Of a stretch of DNA of 37,005 nucleotides, positions 6,005 through 28,142 are shown one piece after another. The stretch covers positions 1 through 37,005 of the forward strand of contig DTRK01000094.1 in assembly GCA_012965955.1 (NCBI GenBank), given 5' to 3'. The translations under genes and the position numbers were made by a program. Below the pieces are notes generated by a model. That model had not been told where the DNA came from, did no database searches, and saw only the letters and a program-made list of their open reading frames with translations. The DNA is from Flavobacteriales bacterium. Its GTDB lineage: Bacteria; Bacteroidota; Bacteroidia; NORP154. The stretch's first letter is position 1. Every line of letters starts with the position of its first letter.

Positions 6005-7930
6005 CTAACCGCTGCCGTTAGGCAGGTTGTTCCAGTGCAACTTCTCTATATCGTCATAGCGGATCTTCTCGGCATCCAATAACCATTGTATGACCTTGAG
6101 TACCTTGTCTTCGGGGGTTCCGGTAATCAGCTCAACCAACTCCTCAATCGTTTTGGCCTCTTCCACCAGTATAGGCTTGATAATCTCCAATACAGACTCA
6201 AACTCCAGATCGCTGAGCTCAATTTTGTTTCTCTCAAGACATATATCACAGGTGCCACACCTGTAGGCGTCTTCTTCACCGAAATACTTGAGTAAAGTAA
6301 TACTTCTGCATTTGGAAATGCCCTGGGTATATTCAATGACTGCCCTGGATTTCTCAACTGCAAGTTCCTTTATCAACTTGTAATTTCCAGGTGCCAGCCT
6401 CAGGTTTTTTGTGTCAATTCTATCCTGAGTATATATGATTTGGGGGGATTTGTTTTGGGGCATGTACTCTAGAACATCCATTTGATTGAGCTGGTTTAGT
6501 CCCTTTTCAACCTCTGATACGGAAGAGCCGTAACGTTTGGCAATTTCCGCTTCGTTTATTTTGACATGCCCGTCGAACGACCCACCATATGACCGCAGCA
6601 ACAGCTTGATGAACACGTCAAATTTGCTATTCTCCACCTGGAAGTTGTAAAGATCGGATTTGTTCATCTTCATCATCATCGTCGAGGGCATGCGAAATGC
6701 ATCCGTGGTACTCAGCAGTCCTTCTTTCTCAAGAAATTTGATCGAATTGAATATTTCCCTGATGTTAATTTTATAGGCCCTGGAAAAATCACTGATGTCG
6801 AAATCAAAGGCGGTACCCTCTCCACCACCTATGGCCAACTGATTCTGGTTTCCCAGGCATTGGTAAACTTTTTTGATGGTTTCGATCATGGGGAAGCCCG
6901 ACTTGATACGCTCTTCTGCCTCCAACTCATCCGTATGGTTATAGAGCAGGGCAGCATATGCTTTTTGTTCGTCGCGGCCCGCTCTTCCTGCTTCCTGAAA
7001 GTAGGCCTCAAGGGAATCAGGAGGTTCAAGGTGAATGACAAAGCGAACATCACCTTTGTCGATGCCCATACCGAAAGCATTTGTCGCCACCATGATGCGG
7101 CATTTACCCTCCATCCACATCTCTTGCTTTGCAGTACGCTCCTTAGAGTCCAGGCCACCATGGTAGAAGTCTGCTGAGACGTTTTCTTTCTGAAGCGATT
7201 TCACAATTTCCTGAGTCTTCTTTCTACTTCTGGCATATATAATCCCGGAACCTGGTACAGCGCCTATGATTTGCAGCATTTTCTTGTGCTTATCATCAAC
7301 ACGACGCACTACATAGGCCAGATTTTTTCGCTCAAAGCTCTTCTGGAAAACGTTCTCCTCCCTGAAGTCGAGTTTGTCTTGAATATCAATTACCACCTTG
7401 GGTGTAGCAGTTGCCGTCAATGCGATGAACGGAAGCTTCGGGTGCAGTTCCCTAATAGCGGAGATATTGAGATATGCAGGACGAAAATCATAGCCCCATT
7501 GAGAGATGCAATGGGCCTCATCAACCGCACAAAAGCTCACGTGCATTTTTTGAATGCGCGTTCTAACAATCTCCGAAGTCAATCGCTCTGGAGATATATA
7601 GAGGAGCTTGGTATTGCCATATATACAATTGTCGAGAGCCGTATCAATTTCTGAAGGCCTCATACCTGAATAAAGTGCAACTGCGGGTATGCCCCTTGCC
7701 TTCACGTTTTCAACCTGATCCTTCATCAAGGCAATAAGCGGTGATATTACCACGCAAACACCATCCAGGGCCATGGCGGGAACCTGAAAACACACGGACT
7801 TGCCACCTCCTGTAGGCAATAGCGCCAGAGTATCATTCCCACCTATAATTGACTGGATGATATCCTCCTGAACATCACGAAAAGAGGTGTGTCCCCAGTA
7901 CTTTGTAAGTATTTGCTGAATACTTAGCAT
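6005..7930 (-). CDS. recQ: RecQ-family ATP-dependent DNA helicase
   Basis: A 641-residue 3'-5' helicase of the RecQ family, acting on forked and recombination intermediates. Walker A is LPTGGGKS (38-45), the DEAH box is at about 137-140 followed by CISQWGYDFR (aromatic-rich loop), and motif VI is EAGRAGRDEQ. The four-cysteine zinc site follows as C-RSITLLKYFGEEDAYR-C-GT-C-DI-C. The C-terminus contains a short winged-helix-like segment (LIKPILVEEAKTIEELVELI region) but I do not recognise an HRDC domain, so this is the shorter RecQ form. It opens the recQ-glycosylase-MATE run. The ATG at 7930 is the natural start, and 182 nt separate it from the divergent PorE-like gene. Confidence 0.95.
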   Translation of the reverse strand: MLSIQQILTKYWGHTSFRDVQEDIIQSIIGGNDTLALLPTGGGKSVCFQVPAMALDGVCVVISPLIALMKDQVENVKARGIPAVALYSGMRPSEIDTALDNCIYGNTKLLYISPERLTSEIVRTRIQKMHVSFCAVDEAHCISQWGYDFRPAYLNISAIRELHPKLPFIALTATATPKVVIDIQDKLDFREENVFQKSFERKNLAYVVRRVDDKHKKMLQIIGAVPGSGIIYARSRKKTQEIVKSLQKENVSADFYHGGLDSKERTAKQEMWMEGKCRIMVATNAFGMGIDKGDVRFVIHLEPPDSLEAYFQEAGRAGRDEQKAYAALLYNHTDELEAEERIKSGFPMIETIKKVYQCLGNQNQLAIGGGEGTAFDFDISDFSRAYKINIREIFNSIKFLEKEGLLSTTDAFRMPSTMMMKMNKSDLYNFQVENSKFDVFIKLLLRSYGGSFDGHVKINEAEIAKRYGSSVSEVEKGLNQLNQMDVLEYMPQNKSPQIIYTQDRIDTKNLRLAPGNYKLIKELAVEKSRAVIEYTQGISKCRSITLLKYFGEEDAYRCGTCDICLERNKIELSDLEFESVLEIIKPILVEEAKTIEELVELITGTPEDKVLKVIQWLLDAEKIRYDDIEKLHWNNLPNGSG

Positions 7931-22549: not shown

Positions 22550-22576
22550 AAATCCCAAATCCCAAATCTCAAATCA
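22550..22576. repeat. short tandem repeat of a 7-nt unit between convergent genes
   Basis: Three to four copies of AATCCCA/AATCTCA run in tandem just beyond the stop codon of the sensor kinase gene, in the 113 nt gap between two convergent genes. No hairpin terminator with a T-run was found in this gap. Confidence 0.55.
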
Positions 22577-25500
22577 ACTTATCTTTTCCAATCCCTTGGA
22601 ACAGGATCAAGAATGAGGTGCCTTTCTGAGGGCGTCTTTCTATGGTTCCATCAATTTGTGTTACCAGAATGCTTATCAATTCCATTCCCATGGTTGAGGG
22701 TTTGTCTATGGAAGCTCCAGATGGTATTCCCAGGCCGTTGTCGCTGATGATCAGCTTGTACCGGCGGTCTTCTGTTGTACCCAGAAACACGGAGATCTTA
22801 CCTGCATTTTTTCCTTCGAATGCATATTTAAGCGAATTCGTAATGAGTTCATTGATGATCAGTCCCATGGGAATCAAGGTGTCAATGGATAGCTGGTCCA
22901 CTGTTACTTTTAAATCGAGCGAGATGTGCTTATCGATGCTATAAGAGTTAATTAAGTTACTGGTAAGCAGGTTTATGTACTCTGTAATATTAATATGTGT
23001 CAGATCACTTGATTGGTACATTTTTTCGTGAATCAGGGACATGGACTCAATCCTGTCTTGAGATTTCCTGAAAACGCTCAATGCATCCTCGTTATCTATG
23101 TAGTGTGACTGAATGCTAAGCAGACTGTTAATTACCTGAAGGTTATTCTTAACACGGTGGTGTATCTCCTTGAGCAGGACTTCTTTATCGTCTTTTTGCC
23201 TGGTGATTTCTTCTGTCCGAATGGCGACAAGCTCCTCAAGCTTGAGTCTCATGTCCAACAACTGTTTGGTTCTGTACTGTATAACCGCATAAACTCCGAG
23301 TCCAAGACCGCCAACGACAATGATGTAAAACCACCACGTCCGCCAAAACGGCAAGTCCACCTCAAAGGCGAACTCTGTAGCTTCCTCATTCCACAATCCA
23401 TCGTTGTTAACAGATTTGACCTTGAAGACATATTCTCCGGGGGGTATGTTGGAGTAAGTTGCCTCGTTTTTAATTGTAGGGGGCGACCAGTCATCATCAA
23501 AACCATCCAGAATAAATCTGTATTGGGTCTTTTCAGGTGTCTTTAGATCTATGCCAATGAAATTGAATGTCAGGTGATTTTTATCATGTGGGAGAGATAG
23601 CTCTTTGGGCAGTTTATACCAAAAATATGAGCCCTGGCTATATCTCAGCAGATCTTGATCTTCAAGGAATAATTTGATGCCAGTTATGTTGGTAATAGGC
23701 TCAACGAAGTTGGCATAATCCTCTTTAGGATCGTATTCGATTACGCCTTTGACCGTACCAAACCATAGCTTGCCTTCACTATCTTTGCACACCGCCCGGG
23801 TATTGCATTCAATGCCGGTGAAGCCTTGCTCTTTATCATAGTTGTTTACCCATTCGACTTCACCTTCTTCGTCAATAAATAGCTTATCGACACCTTTATT
23901 GGTTCCTGCCCAAATATTGCCATCTTCATCACTAATGAGCAGGTATATGGTGTTCGATAGTAACCCATCAGCATCCGTAAGACTTGTAAACTCTTCTCCG
24001 TTGTATCGCATGATACAGCGATCAGTGCCGAAATAAATGTTCCCTAATTTGTCCTCTGCAATGGAACCTACATAGGTGTTGCAAAATCCGTCCTTTGTAC
24101 CGTATGAGGTGAATTCTTTGCCGTCGTATTTGTTCACCCCTGCTCCTGTGCCAAACCACAAATTTCCCCGTGAGTCTGCGTACATTGAGTGAATATAATC
24201 ATGGTTGAGGCCATCCTCTGTGGTATAATTGGTGAAGGTTGCCCCATTGTATTTGACGGCTCCGTTGCCATAAGTACCAAACCAAATGTTCCCGTCATTA
24301 TCTTCCATTAACGATTTGATATGATTGCCAGCTAATCCATTTCTTGTAGAGAAACTCGTGAATGTGGATCCATTAAATCTACAGGCTCCGTTTTCTGTGG
24401 CGAACCATAAGTTGTCCTTACGATCCTTAAGTATTGCCCGAACATTAGATCCTATCAGTCCGTTGTCGGTATTGAACTGCTTTACTTCCGGGCTTCCATT
24501 GGCATTAGCGGCATAGCGATATGCCCCATTTGTTGAAGTGCCTACCCAAATATTCTTATCGCCATCCTCACATATGGCAAATATGTTCCCATTGCTCAGT
24601 CCTGCGACGTTGTAGTAATGGGTGAACATTTCGTCGGAGAATTTGATCACTCCGCCGCCACTTGTGCCGAACCAAATATTTCCTGATCGATCCTGTGCAA
24701 TTGAGAGCACTACGTCGCTTTCAAGTCCGTTTCGATACCGATAGTTAGTGAGCTTTCCATTTACGTATTTAAATGCCCCGCGACCATTTGTTCCGATCCA
24801 TAGTAATCCCCTGGCATCTGATATAATGCTGGTTATGGTAATATTATTCAGGCCTTCTTCTGCTCCGATTTGCTCGAAATCATAGTGGCCACTTTTTATT
24901 GATACAGCGCTCAGTTTCACCAGGCCTTTTCGTTCAAAGCCAATCCACATGTTTCCCAGACTGTCCTGAGTAATGCACGTAACATGGTCATAAGGAAGGC
25001 CATCGGACCTACCTATTGTACTGATCTGGTGATCGTCGTAAATACTAATTCCTTTATTGGTCCCGATCCAAATAGCTCCATCTCCGGCCTCAAAGAGGCA
25101 AGTTACATTGCCCGAGTTCATGCCATTTAGCGTGCTGAGATGACTGAACTCATGGTTGTTGTCAATGATTGTAATTCCGGTATTGGAGCCCACAAATATA
25201 TTTCCATGCCTGTCCTTCAGCAATGCCGTTGTTGCATCAGATATCAGGCCTTGTTTGCGATGGTAATTTTGAAATTTACTCCCGTTAAAGCGAGAGACAC
25301 CACCCCAGGTTGCTCCAATCCACAAGTTGCCCGAGTTATCTTCAACAATAGCCGTCACTATTGGACCGCACAGTCCGTGCCGTTCATCATATTGTGTAAA
25401 ATTCACTCCGTCAAACTGGCAAACTCCACCCCCTGCTGTTCCGAACCAGAGGTATCCCCGGCTATCCTCGTAGATGGTGTTTACCTGGGATTGAGAAAGC

Positions 25501-25604
25501 CCTTCATTTACAGAGAAGGACTCAAAATTGTACATCTGTGCCTTCACCCACAAGATAGGCGTGGTCAATAAGACAATAATCAGCAACATACCCCTGAACC
25601 TCAT
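22569..25604 (-). CDS. orphan sensor histidine kinase: two Reg_prop propellers, Y_Y_Y domain, TM, HisKA_2 kinase
   Basis: From ATG at 25604 (start MRFRGMLLIIVLL) the product has 1011 residues. A signal peptide is followed by 14 Reg_prop repeats of the type D-x-x-GN-x-W-x-GT-x-GG, enough for two seven-bladed propellers (about 25-640). Next come a Y_Y_Y domain (about 690-750, with LPHDKNHLTFNFIGID and YSNIPPGEYVFKVKSVN), one membrane helix (WWFYIIVVGGLGLGVYAVI) and a cytoplasmic kinase. The kinase is HisKA_2 type with EIHHRVKNNLQ (His815/816), an N-box-like NELITNSLKYAFEG, and G1/G2 boxes DNGLGIP and STMGMELI. No receiver or AraC domain is fused and no response regulator is adjacent, so the partner is elsewhere. 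A longer start at GTG 25625 is less likely because it puts charged residues ahead of the signal peptide. Confidence 0.93.
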   Translation of the reverse strand: MRFRGMLLIIVLLTTPILWVKAQMYNFESFSVNEGLSQSQVNTIYEDSRGYLWFGTAGGGVCQFDGVNFTQYDERHGLCGPIVTAIVEDNSGNLWIGATWGGVSRFNGSKFQNYHRKQGLISDATTALLKDRHGNIFVGSNTGITIIDNNHEFSHLSTLNGMNSGNVTCLFEAGDGAIWIGTNKGISIYDDHQISTIGRSDGLPYDHVTCITQDSLGNMWIGFERKGLVKLSAVSIKSGHYDFEQIGAEEGLNNITITSIISDARGLLWIGTNGRGAFKYVNGKLTNYRYRNGLESDVVLSIAQDRSGNIWFGTSGGGVIKFSDEMFTHYYNVAGLSNGNIFAICEDGDKNIWVGTSTNGAYRYAANANGSPEVKQFNTDNGLIGSNVRAILKDRKDNLWFATENGACRFNGSTFTSFSTRNGLAGNHIKSLMEDNDGNIWFGTYGNGAVKYNGATFTNYTTEDGLNHDYIHSMYADSRGNLWFGTGAGVNKYDGKEFTSYGTKDGFCNTYVGSIAEDKLGNIYFGTDRCIMRYNGEEFTSLTDADGLLSNTIYLLISDEDGNIWAGTNKGVDKLFIDEEGEVEWVNNYDKEQGFTGIECNTRAVCKDSEGKLWFGTVKGVIEYDPKEDYANFVEPITNITGIKLFLEDQDLLRYSQGSYFWYKLPKELSLPHDKNHLTFNFIGIDLKTPEKTQYRFILDGFDDDWSPPTIKNEATYSNIPPGEYVFKVKSVNNDGLWNEEATEFAFEVDLPFWRTWWFYIIVVGGLGLGVYAVIQYRTKQLLDMRLKLEELVAIRTEEITRQKDDKEVLLKEIHHRVKNNLQVINSLLSIQSHYIDNEDALSVFRKSQDRIESMSLIHEKMYQSSDLTHINITEYINLLTSNLINSYSIDKHISLDLKVTVDQLSIDTLIPMGLIINELITNSLKYAFEGKNAGKISVFLGTTEDRRYKLIISDNGLGIPSGASIDKPSTMGMELISILVTQIDGTIERRPQKGTSFLILFQGIGKDKLI

Positions 25605-25691
25605 ATCACGACGAAATTGTGCCACACGGTAACAATACTACAAAATCTATCCTTTTTATTAATGGGTGTATTAGCCCATGGGCTTCAAATC

Positions 25692-25836: not shown

Positions 25837-26895
25837 ATGACGCGAGAGACGAGATTCTTGATTTATGGTGCTACAGGTTATACGGGCAAATTGGCTGCCA
25901 GGATGGCCGTAGAGGCAGGCCTAAAACCAATTCTTTCAGGTAGAAATGAGGCCAAGCTCAAGAAGCTTGCTGAACCACTTAATTTGGAGCATACTTCGGT
26001 ATCCCTCGATAATCGAGAGGGGTTGGAGGCCTTGTTGCAAAAGGTTGCTGTTGTATTACACATCGCCGGTCCGTTTTCTGCTACTGCGAAACTCATGGTA
26101 GAAGCATGCTTGAACACAGGAACGCATTACCTGGACATTACCGGTGAAATTGAGATTTTTGAAAGGCACTCCCGACTCGATGAGGAAGCAAAGAATAAGG
26201 GAATAATGATCATGTCGGGAGTAGGCTTCGATGTTGTGCCTACTGATTGTCTGTCTGCACATTTGAAGGATCGGCTGCCAGATGCGACACATTTGATTTT
26301 GAGTATTGCTGCATCAGGGGGTATGTCTCCGGGAACTGCGAAAACCATTGTTGAAGGAATAGGATATGGTACGGTGCTGAGAAGAGGAGGCAATATCGTT
26401 GAGGTACATGAATTGCTGCGGAGCCATGCTGACTTTGGCAGAGGTGATAGAGATACCGTTGCTATTGGCTGGGGGGATGTATCCACTGCATACCACACCA
26501 CTGCCATTCCGAACATTACTGTTTTCTTTAAATCTACCGCTGCGTTAAAGATGGTGGCAGGCATGGGCAAGGGGCTTAAGGGGATATTGGCAAAACCCTG
26601 GATGCAGCGATTGATTAAAAGGCGAATTGAGAAGATGGTTAAAGGACCAGATGATGCCGCCAGATCAAAAGGTTATTCGATAATAATTGGGGAAGTAAAG
26701 AATGATGAGGGCACAGTGATGAAATCCAAACTCGTTACACCTGAAGGATATACCTTAACGTGCCTATGCGGACTGGAGATAGTTAAGCAGGTATTGGAGG
26801 GAAACTTCAAAGCTGGATTCCGTACACCGGCAGGTGTTTACGGTGCTGACTTTATTCTTCAATTTGACGGTGTTGAGCGAACAGATATAGAATGA
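25837..26895 (+). CDS. saccharopine dehydrogenase-family NAD(P)-binding protein (enoyl-reductase-like)
   Basis: A 352-residue protein from ATG at 25837 (ATG at 25828 is equally possible; a TTG at 25786 overlaps the -7 box and is rejected). The N-terminal Rossmann fold is clear: FLIYGATGYTGKLAARM, then LSGRNEAKLKKLA, VVLHIAGPFSATAKLMVEAC and HYLDITGEIEIF, the pattern of the trans-acting enoyl reductase/saccharopine dehydrogenase-like family rather than true lysine-pathway enzymes. The domain of about residues 130-352 has GVGFDVVPTDCL and GTAKTIVEGIGYG. Relatives act on lipids or polyketides, but the substrate here is not deducible. The stop overlaps the ATG of the next gene by 4 nt, so the two are translationally coupled. 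Confidence 0.88.
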   Translation: MTRETRFLIYGATGYTGKLAARMAVEAGLKPILSGRNEAKLKKLAEPLNLEHTSVSLDNREGLEALLQKVAVVLHIAGPFSATAKLMVEACLNTGTHYLDITGEIEIFERHSRLDEEAKNKGIMIMSGVGFDVVPTDCLSAHLKDRLPDATHLILSIAASGGMSPGTAKTIVEGIGYGTVLRRGGNIVEVHELLRSHADFGRGDRDTVAIGWGDVSTAYHTTAIPNITVFFKSTAALKMVAGMGKGLKGILAKPWMQRLIKRRIEKMVKGPDDAARSKGYSIIIGEVKNDEGTVMKSKLVTPEGYTLTCLCGLEIVKQVLEGNFKAGFRTPAGVYGADFILQFDGVERTDIE

Positions 26896-28142
26896 GAATA
26901 CTGGTCCATATAGTTCTTTTAGCACTTCTCATTGAAAGCACGACTGACTCTTTTGCTCAGGGCATGAGCGGGAGTTTGGAACAGCATATTGACAGTATTA
27001 TCGACAACTTACCAGGTAGTGGGGGAGAAGACTATGTTACGCCTACCACCTCACAGCACCAGGCTTGGCAAGCAATTGTCGCAAATATCTTGCAAAAAAA
27101 CTTGACCACAGCTGAGGGTCTCGCGGTCCCTTTAAACTATTACATTATTGAGTACTTGGATGTAACGTCATCCCAGGTATTCTATATACTGGAGGAGAAG
27201 ACCCCACATTTATATTATTGGGGTACATATGTATTTAATGCTGCTCCCTGCAGGACGAAACTGGTCATTCAATCTCCACATCCAAAATATGACTTTAATA
27301 CAGGTAAGGAAGCGGTCTTTTGTTTTCAGCGGCTAAGTGCCTTGGCATATTGTCTGAGCGGAACGCATAGATGCAGTAGTAGTCAGGCTTCGCCATGCTC
27401 AGGTACGACCAGCTCCTGTGGGTCACCCTCTGCGCCATTTAGGGTCTCGGACATGGCGCACAGCACTGAAGGAATGTATCAAATAACCACCTCCGCCATA
27501 TTAGCTCAGGTGCCGGGCGCTGCATTCGTGCAGCTTCACGGTTTCTCCAAGCAACCGACGGATCCCTATGTCATACTTAGCAATGGTACAAGAGAAACAC
27601 CTACAACTGATCACATTGCTTCACTTATGATCGGATTGCAGATAGCTGACCCTTCACTTACGTTCAAAGCGGCACATATCGATACAACATGGACAAGGTT
27701 AATCGGATTTACCAATGTTCAGGGACGGATGATTAATAACAGCGCAGATCACTGCAACACATCTGCGGTTACCACCACTGGAAACTTCATTCATATCGAG
27801 CAGGAAAAGACGAAGTTGAGAGATGACAGTACTGGGTGGTACAAGGTGTACCAGGCACTCTCTGCCGCTTTCCCTTGTGATACTACGGTGGGAATACAGG
27901 AACCCAGTGGTGCCGATCAGAATTTTCGAATCTATCCAACCCCCGTCTCTTCAGACTTAACTATTGAAGGTGACGGCATTGACGGCATCATGATCTTTAA
28001 TAACCTGGGTAAACTAATAGTGGAATTGGAGGGGGGGAAGAATAGGGTAATCGTTGATCTTGCAGATTATTGCGCTGGTCTTTATCTGTTAGCAGTAATG
28101 AACAAACAAGGGACTTTTGTTCGGACGATTATTAAGTTTTAA
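26892..28142 (+). CDS. T9SS-exported protein with putative metallohydrolase-like core
   Basis: A 416-residue protein with a signal peptide (MRILVHIVLLALLIESTTDSFAQ) and a T9SS C-terminal domain from about residue 345 (IYPTPVSSDLTIEGDG, IMIFNNLGKLIVEL, CAGLYLLAVMNKQG). The core has conserved-looking polar islands: SPHPKYDFNTGKE (about 128-140), GTHRC (157-161), SDMAH (186-190), VQLHGFS (213-219) and HIEQE (301-305). A His...Glu...His...Glu order is what zinc hydrolases of the N-formylglutamate amidohydrolase/M14 fold use, so a secreted zinc amidase or peptidase is suggested by inference only. Several Cys residues near 161-176 could form disulfides. It is coupled by a 4 nt overlap to the reductase gene, and 88 nt precede the next gene. 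Confidence 0.8.
   Translation: MRILVHIVLLALLIESTTDSFAQGMSGSLEQHIDSIIDNLPGSGGEDYVTPTTSQHQAWQAIVANILQKNLTTAEGLAVPLNYYIIEYLDVTSSQVFYILEEKTPHLYYWGTYVFNAAPCRTKLVIQSPHPKYDFNTGKEAVFCFQRLSALAYCLSGTHRCSSSQASPCSGTTSSCGSPSAPFRVSDMAHSTEGMYQITTSAILAQVPGAAFVQLHGFSKQPTDPYVILSNGTRETPTTDHIASLMIGLQIADPSLTFKAAHIDTTWTRLIGFTNVQGRMINNSADHCNTSAVTTTGNFIHIEQEKTKLRDDSTGWYKVYQALSAAFPCDTTVGIQEPSGADQNFRIYPTPVSSDLTIEGDGIDGIMIFNNLGKLIVELEGGKNRVIVDLADYCAGLYLLAVMNKQGTFVRTIIKF

Follow-up and report, generated by a model that had tools for sequence, protein, structure and literature searches.

The window analysed here is a stretch of 37,005 nucleotides from a Flavobacteriales genome (contig DTRK01000094.1), and our subject is one gene in it, at 26892-28142 on the forward strand, which we think probably encodes an exported zinc hydrolase of a gamma-glutamyl polymer, built on a PghP/N-formylglutamate amidohydrolase (FGase)/M14 scaffold. 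The open reading frame (ORF) codes for 416 amino acids and its own ATG overlaps the stop of the upstream gene (ATGA). The N-terminus is hydrophobic and ends in SFAQ, as judged by eye from the translation and with no predictor, and the C-terminus carries a type A sorting domain of the type IX secretion system (T9SS), found with Pfam (PF18962, E=7.9e-9, 36.1 bits against a curated cut-off of 27, residues 347-414/415) as well as with NCBIfam (TIGR04183, E=8.5e-8, 32.1 bits against a curated cut-off of 23). Both matches argue for T9SS export, which had been suggested in an earlier reading of the DNA without database searches (the sequence-only reading). Beyond the sorting tail, no convincing match to the protein was found in the Pfam, NCBIfam and PDB sequence searches. 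The five islands that the earlier reading had picked out are all there (SPHPKYDFNTGKE at residues 128-140, GTHRC at 157-161, SDMAH at 186-190, VQLHGFS at 213-219 and HIEQE at 301-305), and its numbering of His130, Glu140, His216 and Glu303/305 is correct.

The core was aligned for 28 members from Bacteroidota, Actinomycetota and Cyanobacteriota, the other 27 being 22-58% identical to the window protein. The alignment omits L041, L054 and L055, which are near kin of kept rows, L032/L002 with many undetermined letters, a deleted copy (L006/L031/L036) and a Corynebacterium protein with long extra regions (L068), which is in the set of 29 rows. Among the tabulated positions, W110, G111, H130, G157, R160, D187, H216, N275, E303 and R310 are identical in all 28 rows; D134 is found in 27, the remaining row having Glu, H301 in 27 and H190 in 25. 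Members that are linked to poly-gamma-glutamate synthesis (pgs) genes share their putative metal and catalytic residues with those that are not linked. The hydrolase-like His/Glu pattern proposed in the sequence-only reading thus stands for H130, H216 and E303, but E140 and E305, conserved in only 12/28 and 9/28 rows, are not supported as metal or catalytic residues; H159 is kept in 21/28. Homologues without the histidines, which the same reading had named as evidence that would speak against it, were not seen among the 28 aligned rows, all of which keep H130 and H216; one further copy, in G002, has lost the segment with H216 (see below). D134 rather than E140 probably suits the second metal ligand, judging from the conservation, and a metal site of H130, D134 and H216 is probable on the basis of topology, conservation and profile alignment to PghP. 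R160 probably binds a carboxylate of the substrate. The cluster of cysteines that had been pointed out does exist (C161, C169 and C176), but we rejected it as a metal site, since the cysteines are gained and lost pairwise: rows 1-19 have both C161 and C176, C169 and C288 occur together in one set of 17 rows and C120 and C329 in rows 1-4, and the C176 column is blank in nine of the more distant rows. Because they appear and vanish in pairs, the alignment suggests that they are disulfides of a secreted protein.

The core of the window protein was modelled with AlphaFold2 from 25 rows, with a predicted local distance difference test score (pLDDT) of 94.2 and a predicted template modelling score (pTM) of 0.93. 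When the model was compared with known structures by VIA-align 2, the top match was 2odf (Z 12.8; 3.5 Å over 190 residues), followed by the N-formylglutamate amidohydrolase 2q7s (Z 12.1; 3.3 Å over 186 residues) and by PghP, 3a9l (Z 11.2; 4.1 Å over 177 residues), while M14 carboxypeptidases came at Z 11.0 and lower. The fold type that had been proposed from the order of the islands, that of N-formylglutamate amidohydrolase and M14, is what this predicted model matches, and we consider it very probable that the protein is a metal-dependent hydrolase of the M14/FGase/PghP fold. Foldseek placed Rep34, a putative carboxypeptidase from Shewanella and 2q7s at the top of its list; YndL, a gamma-PGA hydrolase, came ninth. 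A relative whose contig bears PgsB (L058, 28% identical to the window protein) was modelled with pLDDT 93.7 and pTM 0.92, and with this model 2odf (14.2) and 2q7s (13.7) were followed by three gamma-PGA hydrolases, 3a9l (13.2; 3.5 Å over 169 residues), 5onj (12.8) and 21dc (12.6), and then by carboxypeptidases at Z 11.7 and lower. In the window model, H130 comes after strand 102-109, H216 lies close to where strand 192-199 ends, and strand 280-286 contains E303 (strands in model numbering, +19). These positions correspond to the places of H69, H196 and E270 in carboxypeptidase A. One report gives E165 of PghP as the spatial equivalent of carboxypeptidase A Glu270, and 2odf (12.7) and 2q7s (12.2) as the first neighbours of PghL outside its own family (PMC6506827).

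By sequence profile, PghP is the nearest among the families tested. A profile of the 28 rows was compared by hhalign with 11 PghP-family proteins, including PghP of phiNIT1 and PM1, with 100 column shuffles as the null; the score was 34.9, which none of the 100 shuffles reached (maximum 20.0), and the reversed profile scored 12.0. The alignment pairs H216 with H103 of PghP and E303 with E165. Six FGase relatives scored 20.8 over 27 columns, as high as one shuffle in 100, and as a yardstick PghP itself scores 24-26 against two FGase-like sets. On these scores we place PghP nearest; the profile similarity to FGase is at chance level, and a link to FGase by sequence was set aside. Profile comparison with the FGase and M14 families, proposed in the sequence-only reading as a check, gave neither a PF05013 nor a Pfam M14 match, and PF05013 was not matched anywhere in the genome of the window.

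The likeness to PghP and PghL/YndL (MEROPS M86, PF05908) lies in the predicted fold (with Z 11.2 when the window protein is modelled and 12.6-13.2 when L058 is), in the residue order H, HG, E, R, with the third ligand H103 in HG and E165 matched by H216 and E303, in the profile score and in the presence of some relatives in gamma-PGA loci. Alanine changes at H40, E45, H78, H103 or E165 of PghP are reported to harm its activity (PMC6506827). There are also clear differences. The family has PHPxxD, with Asp at H+4, where PghP has PHGGxIE, with Glu at H+5, and the zinc motif H40-x4-E45 is replaced by H130-x3-D134. The 208-residue PghP of phiNIT1 has some 39 residues ahead of its first ligand H40, whereas the window protein has a longer N-terminal part with an invariant WG, a region around R160 and D187 and a T9SS tail, and it gives no PF05908 hit. 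N-formylglutamate amidohydrolase (PF05013; 2q7s, and also 2odf, Atu2144) is alike in fold (Z 12-14) and in overall motif order. The M14 carboxypeptidases, with carboxypeptidase A as the example, are alike in fold (Z about 11) and in the topological places of the ligands and the catalytic Glu, but their metal motif is HxxE and that of the family HxxxD.

Poly-gamma-glutamate (gamma-PGA) is a slimy polymer made by many microbes, and genes for its synthesis were found beside some relatives of the window protein. In an even draw of 395 Bacteroidota genomes, 24 matched the family, the window's own included. PgsB, taken as TIGR04012 over its cut-off, is present in 11 and together with the family in six (Fisher, one-sided, p=1e-5), and TIGR04332 in 12, seven of them with the family (p=8e-7); both p-values are too small, as the genomes were treated as independent though they are related. 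In one of these (G388) the TIGR04332 and family genes are more than 1 Mb apart. PgsB and the family gene share a contig in five of the six, at distances of about 1.7 (G316), 1.6 (G236), 6.5 (G304), 9.4 (G329) and 30 kb (G181), and lie on different contigs in G260. The PgsB proteins of Bacteroidota fall into two score groups, of 401-460 and 242-262 bits, and the five that are linked to the family are all in the lower; the higher-scoring type occurs in six genomes, five without a family match and the sixth being G260.

We looked at the neighbourhoods in 20 stretches from 18 genomes (the family-bearing G166, G219, G227, G231 and G459 were not included), with neighbour families defined from proteins of G236, plus two of G329, one of G304 and one of G181, and transferred by BLAST. 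Six of the 18 have genes of the cluster. All six carry a gamma-glutamyltransferase, a DUF6305 protein, an AstE/AspA-like protein and a DctM-like permease; five carry PgsB and the TIGR04332 protein, and four carry PgsC, which did not turn up among the G329 ORFs. In five Bacteroidota genomes PgsB and the TIGR04332 protein are thus encoded on the contig of the family gene, whereas neither these genes nor those for PgsC or gamma-glutamyltransferase were found beside the gene of the window. In G236 the family gene comes after PgsB and PgsC, and its first base is the last one of the TIGR04332 stop codon; in G316 about 60 bases separate it from the TIGR04332 gene, in G304 it adjoins the permease gene and in G329 it is two genes away from it. 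In G181 it is some 24-30 kb off the cluster, with neighbours common to G329 and G244. The latter has two family genes (L103 and L104) about 16 kb apart, around a set of permease, glutamate-racemase-like, FGase-like, AstE/AspA-like and gamma-glutamyltransferase genes, and no PgsB match in the genome; from its gene content the set looks like a locus for polyglutamate utilisation. Outside Bacteroidota, a plasmid of Chroococcidiopsis thermalis has pgsB, pgsC and then the relative on one strand, and in Streptomyces finlayi the relative and CapA are transcribed divergently and pgsB follows at a greater distance, an arrangement shared by S. clavuligerus (PGA_cap at E=3e-67; PgsB by tblastn, 35%, E=5e-57).

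Some other genes of these regions deserve mention. The loci of G181 and G244 that are associated with gamma-PGA repeatedly contain another, second FGase-like family (PH-G ... DLHG); its positions are L097:8391-9293, L098:1183-2151, L103:15373-16290 and L078:1336-2565, and the one that was scanned fell just below the PF05013 cut-off. The WG motif in L078, an FGase-like T9SS protein, was considered and rejected, since other proteins of that set do not conserve the W and the profile test gave a chance-level score (1/60 shuffles as high). In G279, G340 and Chroococcidiopsis, a gene of beta-lactamase/serine-hydrolase type adjoins the family gene or lies close to it (L110:5134-6411, L107:8720-9988 and L080:14994-17150), recognised by PF00144 in Chroococcidiopsis and by BLAST in the others. 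The PgsC of Chroococcidiopsis (L080:18448-19446) has 333 residues; the four PgsC proteins found in Bacteroidota, with 142-145, are less than half as long.

A number of results weigh against PghP as the closest model and gamma-PGA as the substrate. PghP is tied with the carboxypeptidases in the VIA-align comparison of the window model, and the template modelling (TM) scores of Foldseek, normalised by query, are 0.28-0.41 for hits at E<=0.001, with nucleoside phosphorylases among them; because of these low scores and mixed hits, the relation of the model to known folds is distant. The profile match to PghP is restricted to the C-terminal half, and a forced global alignment does not pair the PHP motif cleanly, so that the equivalence of H130/D134 to H40/E45 of PghP rests on topology and conservation. 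Neither PF05908 nor PF05013 scores at E<=1 in any of 29 members. In the regions from 12 of the 18 genomes, none of the genes of the cluster was found by BLAST, and PGA_cap (PF09587), present in 16 of 28 family-bearing genomes, is never near the family gene. The linked rows of the tree, 10 of 28, sit at three places, and much of the linkage is for that reason shared descent. At the window, none of the ten neighbouring ORFs matches a pgs model; its genome, 92% complete, has no match to PgsB or TIGR04332, and its relatives G001, G003, G004 and G006 have no PgsB over the cut-off. The genome does have one PGA_cap protein and one gamma-glutamyltransferase, neither of them on the contig of the window. 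With no pgs genes nearby and no PgsB in the genome, the substrate of the window protein is assigned by kinship and not by its own context.

The most serious alternative, which we consider unlikely, is that the exported protein is a zinc amidase or carboxypeptidase acting on something else, such as ordinary peptides, N-acyl-glutamates, polyglutamylated proteins or the gamma-D-glutamyl bonds in fragments of peptidoglycan, and that the link to gamma-PGA is confined to some branches of the family. The fold is common to peptidoglycan amidases, carboxypeptidases and FGase, and the 12 genomes with unlinked regions and the missing PgsB of the window's genome fit this alternative. However, the window protein belongs to a clade of 14 rows (support 100/100) in which four are linked, linked members are found in distant branches too, the nearest profile tested is that of PghP and not FGase, and the putative metal and catalytic residues do not differ between linked and unlinked members. 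That the protein only binds its ligand, or is a dead enzyme of the same fold, is very improbable: a relative with an in-frame deletion in the core points that way, but all 28 rows, from three phyla, keep H130, H216, E303, R160 and R310 without change. A true N-formylglutamate amidohydrolase (PF05013) is hardly credible, for although VIA-align ranks 2odf and 2q7s above all other structures, none of 29 members scores with PF05013 at E<=1, the short profile match is equalled by one shuffle in 100, and the sorting tail predicts export while FGase works in the cytosol.

We thus prefer a hydrolase of gamma-glutamyl polymer, a substrate and function that we predict with some reserve but think the better founded, and for the zinc, the roles of the residues and the physiological role we infer the following. 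The T9SS would send the enzyme to the cell surface or outside, where poly-gamma-glutamate, or an anionic polymer much like it, would be cut at its gamma-glutamyl amide bonds. The zinc would be held by H130, D134 and H216 and the attacking water activated by E303, while R160, R310, N275/Q277 and D187/H190 would line the pocket and probably grip carboxylates of the substrate. In relatives bearing pgs genes, the enzyme may trim or recycle the polymer of the cell itself, with the gamma-glutamyltransferase and the permease taking over the fragments. In the organism of the window, in which no PgsB was found, it would more likely attack polymer made by others. What goes beyond the sequence-only reading is the relation to PghP, D134 as a likely ligand, the probable pairing of cysteines in disulfides and the linkage of some relatives to gamma-PGA genes.

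Three classes of gamma-PGA-degrading enzymes, CapD, PgdS and PghP, are named in PMC6506827. Few such enzymes have been described, and ours, if the prediction is true, would be another family, distinct in sequence and found beside gamma-PGA synthesis genes. In the literature searched we found nothing on gamma-PGA breakdown in Bacteroidota, for which there would then be a testable enzyme and pathway, as well as a name for proteins that are now called hypothetical; the family could also supply new biocatalysts with which to size an industrial biopolymer. We put forward, as a tentative hypothesis that may well prove wrong, that gamma-PGA systems of Bacteroidota, Cyanobacteria and Actinobacteria have, as a recurrent component, secreted zinc endo-hydrolases of one as yet unnamed family, that loci of the G244 type are polyglutamate-utilisation loci, comparable to polysaccharide utilisation loci, and that stand-alone T9SS copies such as that of the window let Bacteroidota feed on, or strip, the polyglutamate of other microbes.

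The family was expected to be poorly described, and indeed it has no Pfam or NCBIfam model of its own. When the cores were searched against NCBIfam and PHROGs, no family was matched by more than one of 28 members, and weak hits were restricted to single members (e.g. NF050160, E 4e-4). When whole proteins were searched against Pfam, sorting tails, FlgD_ig, LTD and a PKD model (E 0.14) were the families with hits in two or more of 29 members; these domains are taken to lie outside the core. No paper was found whose title describes the family in a search of titles in mostly open-access literature. In the taxonomic order of the window, the family is present in six of seven genomes, including the deleted copy in G002. 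This copy, from the same genus as the window, has an in-frame deletion that joins residue ~143 to ~297 and leaves a frame of 265 residues without H216 (L036 about 6840-7500; L006 1483-2280; L031 4986-5783), either a natural loss or an artefact of assembly. A scan with the single protein over 84,980 species genomes, by a method that reaches only close relatives, gave one locus, on the G002 contig. Among plasmids, tblastn found seven records (five Streptomyces, one Corynebacterium and one Chroococcidiopsis) at 24-28% identity, five of which span at least 80% of the query. Viral contigs gave none with one family query and one locus with another, which is probably the Corynebacterium element again, and the phage search gave a single weak piece (E 9e-3). 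On the plasmid of Corynebacterium ureicelerivorans (L068:3984-6197) the domain is within a protein of 738 residues, whose gene comes four genes past a phage tail tape-measure gene and ahead of one for an M23-type peptidase; because of these flanking genes we place it in a phage tail module.

Table 1. Features of the gene and its product (positions in the window; residues counted in the protein).
Feature	Position	Strand	Basis
Whole ORF, T9SS-exported PghP/FGase-fold hydrolase (predicted)	26892..28142	+	domain matches, model
Probable signal peptide, residues 1-23	26892..26960	+	by eye
N-terminal helical/beta subdomain, residues ~24-108	26961..27215	+	secondary structure of model
Invariant W110-G111, precedes strand leading to metal site	27219..27224	+	28/28
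PHPKYD, probable metal ligands (first H130, second D134)	27276..27293	+	conservation; after model strand 102-109
GTHRC, G157 and R160 invariant, H159 21/28	27360..27374	+	alignment
Cys-containing loop C161-C176, probable disulfides	27372..27419	+	alignment
D187-x-x-H190, D187 28/28, H190 25/28	27450..27461	+	alignment
H216 of QLHGF, probable third metal ligand	27537..27539	+	28/28; profile alignment with PghP H103
N275-x-Q277-G278, probably pocket	27714..27725	+	28/28, 27/28, 27/28
C288, probable partner of C169	27753..27755	+	both Cys in the same 17/28 rows
E303, probable catalytic base	27798..27800	+	28/28; profile alignment with PghP E165
R310	27819..27821	+	28/28; aligned with PghP R171
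Type A T9SS sorting domain, residues 347-414	27930..28133	+	PF18962, TIGR04183

Ten neighbouring ORFs of the window were searched against NCBIfam, and five were matched at E<=0.001 and five were not. Those matched are a sensor kinase, a MarR-type regulator, a protein-L-isoaspartate methyltransferase, an acyltransferase-like protein and one that weakly resembles oxidoreductases. A protein of 1018 residues, encoded at 22569-25625 on the reverse strand, has a PorZ-like match N-terminally and a histidine kinase match C-terminally.

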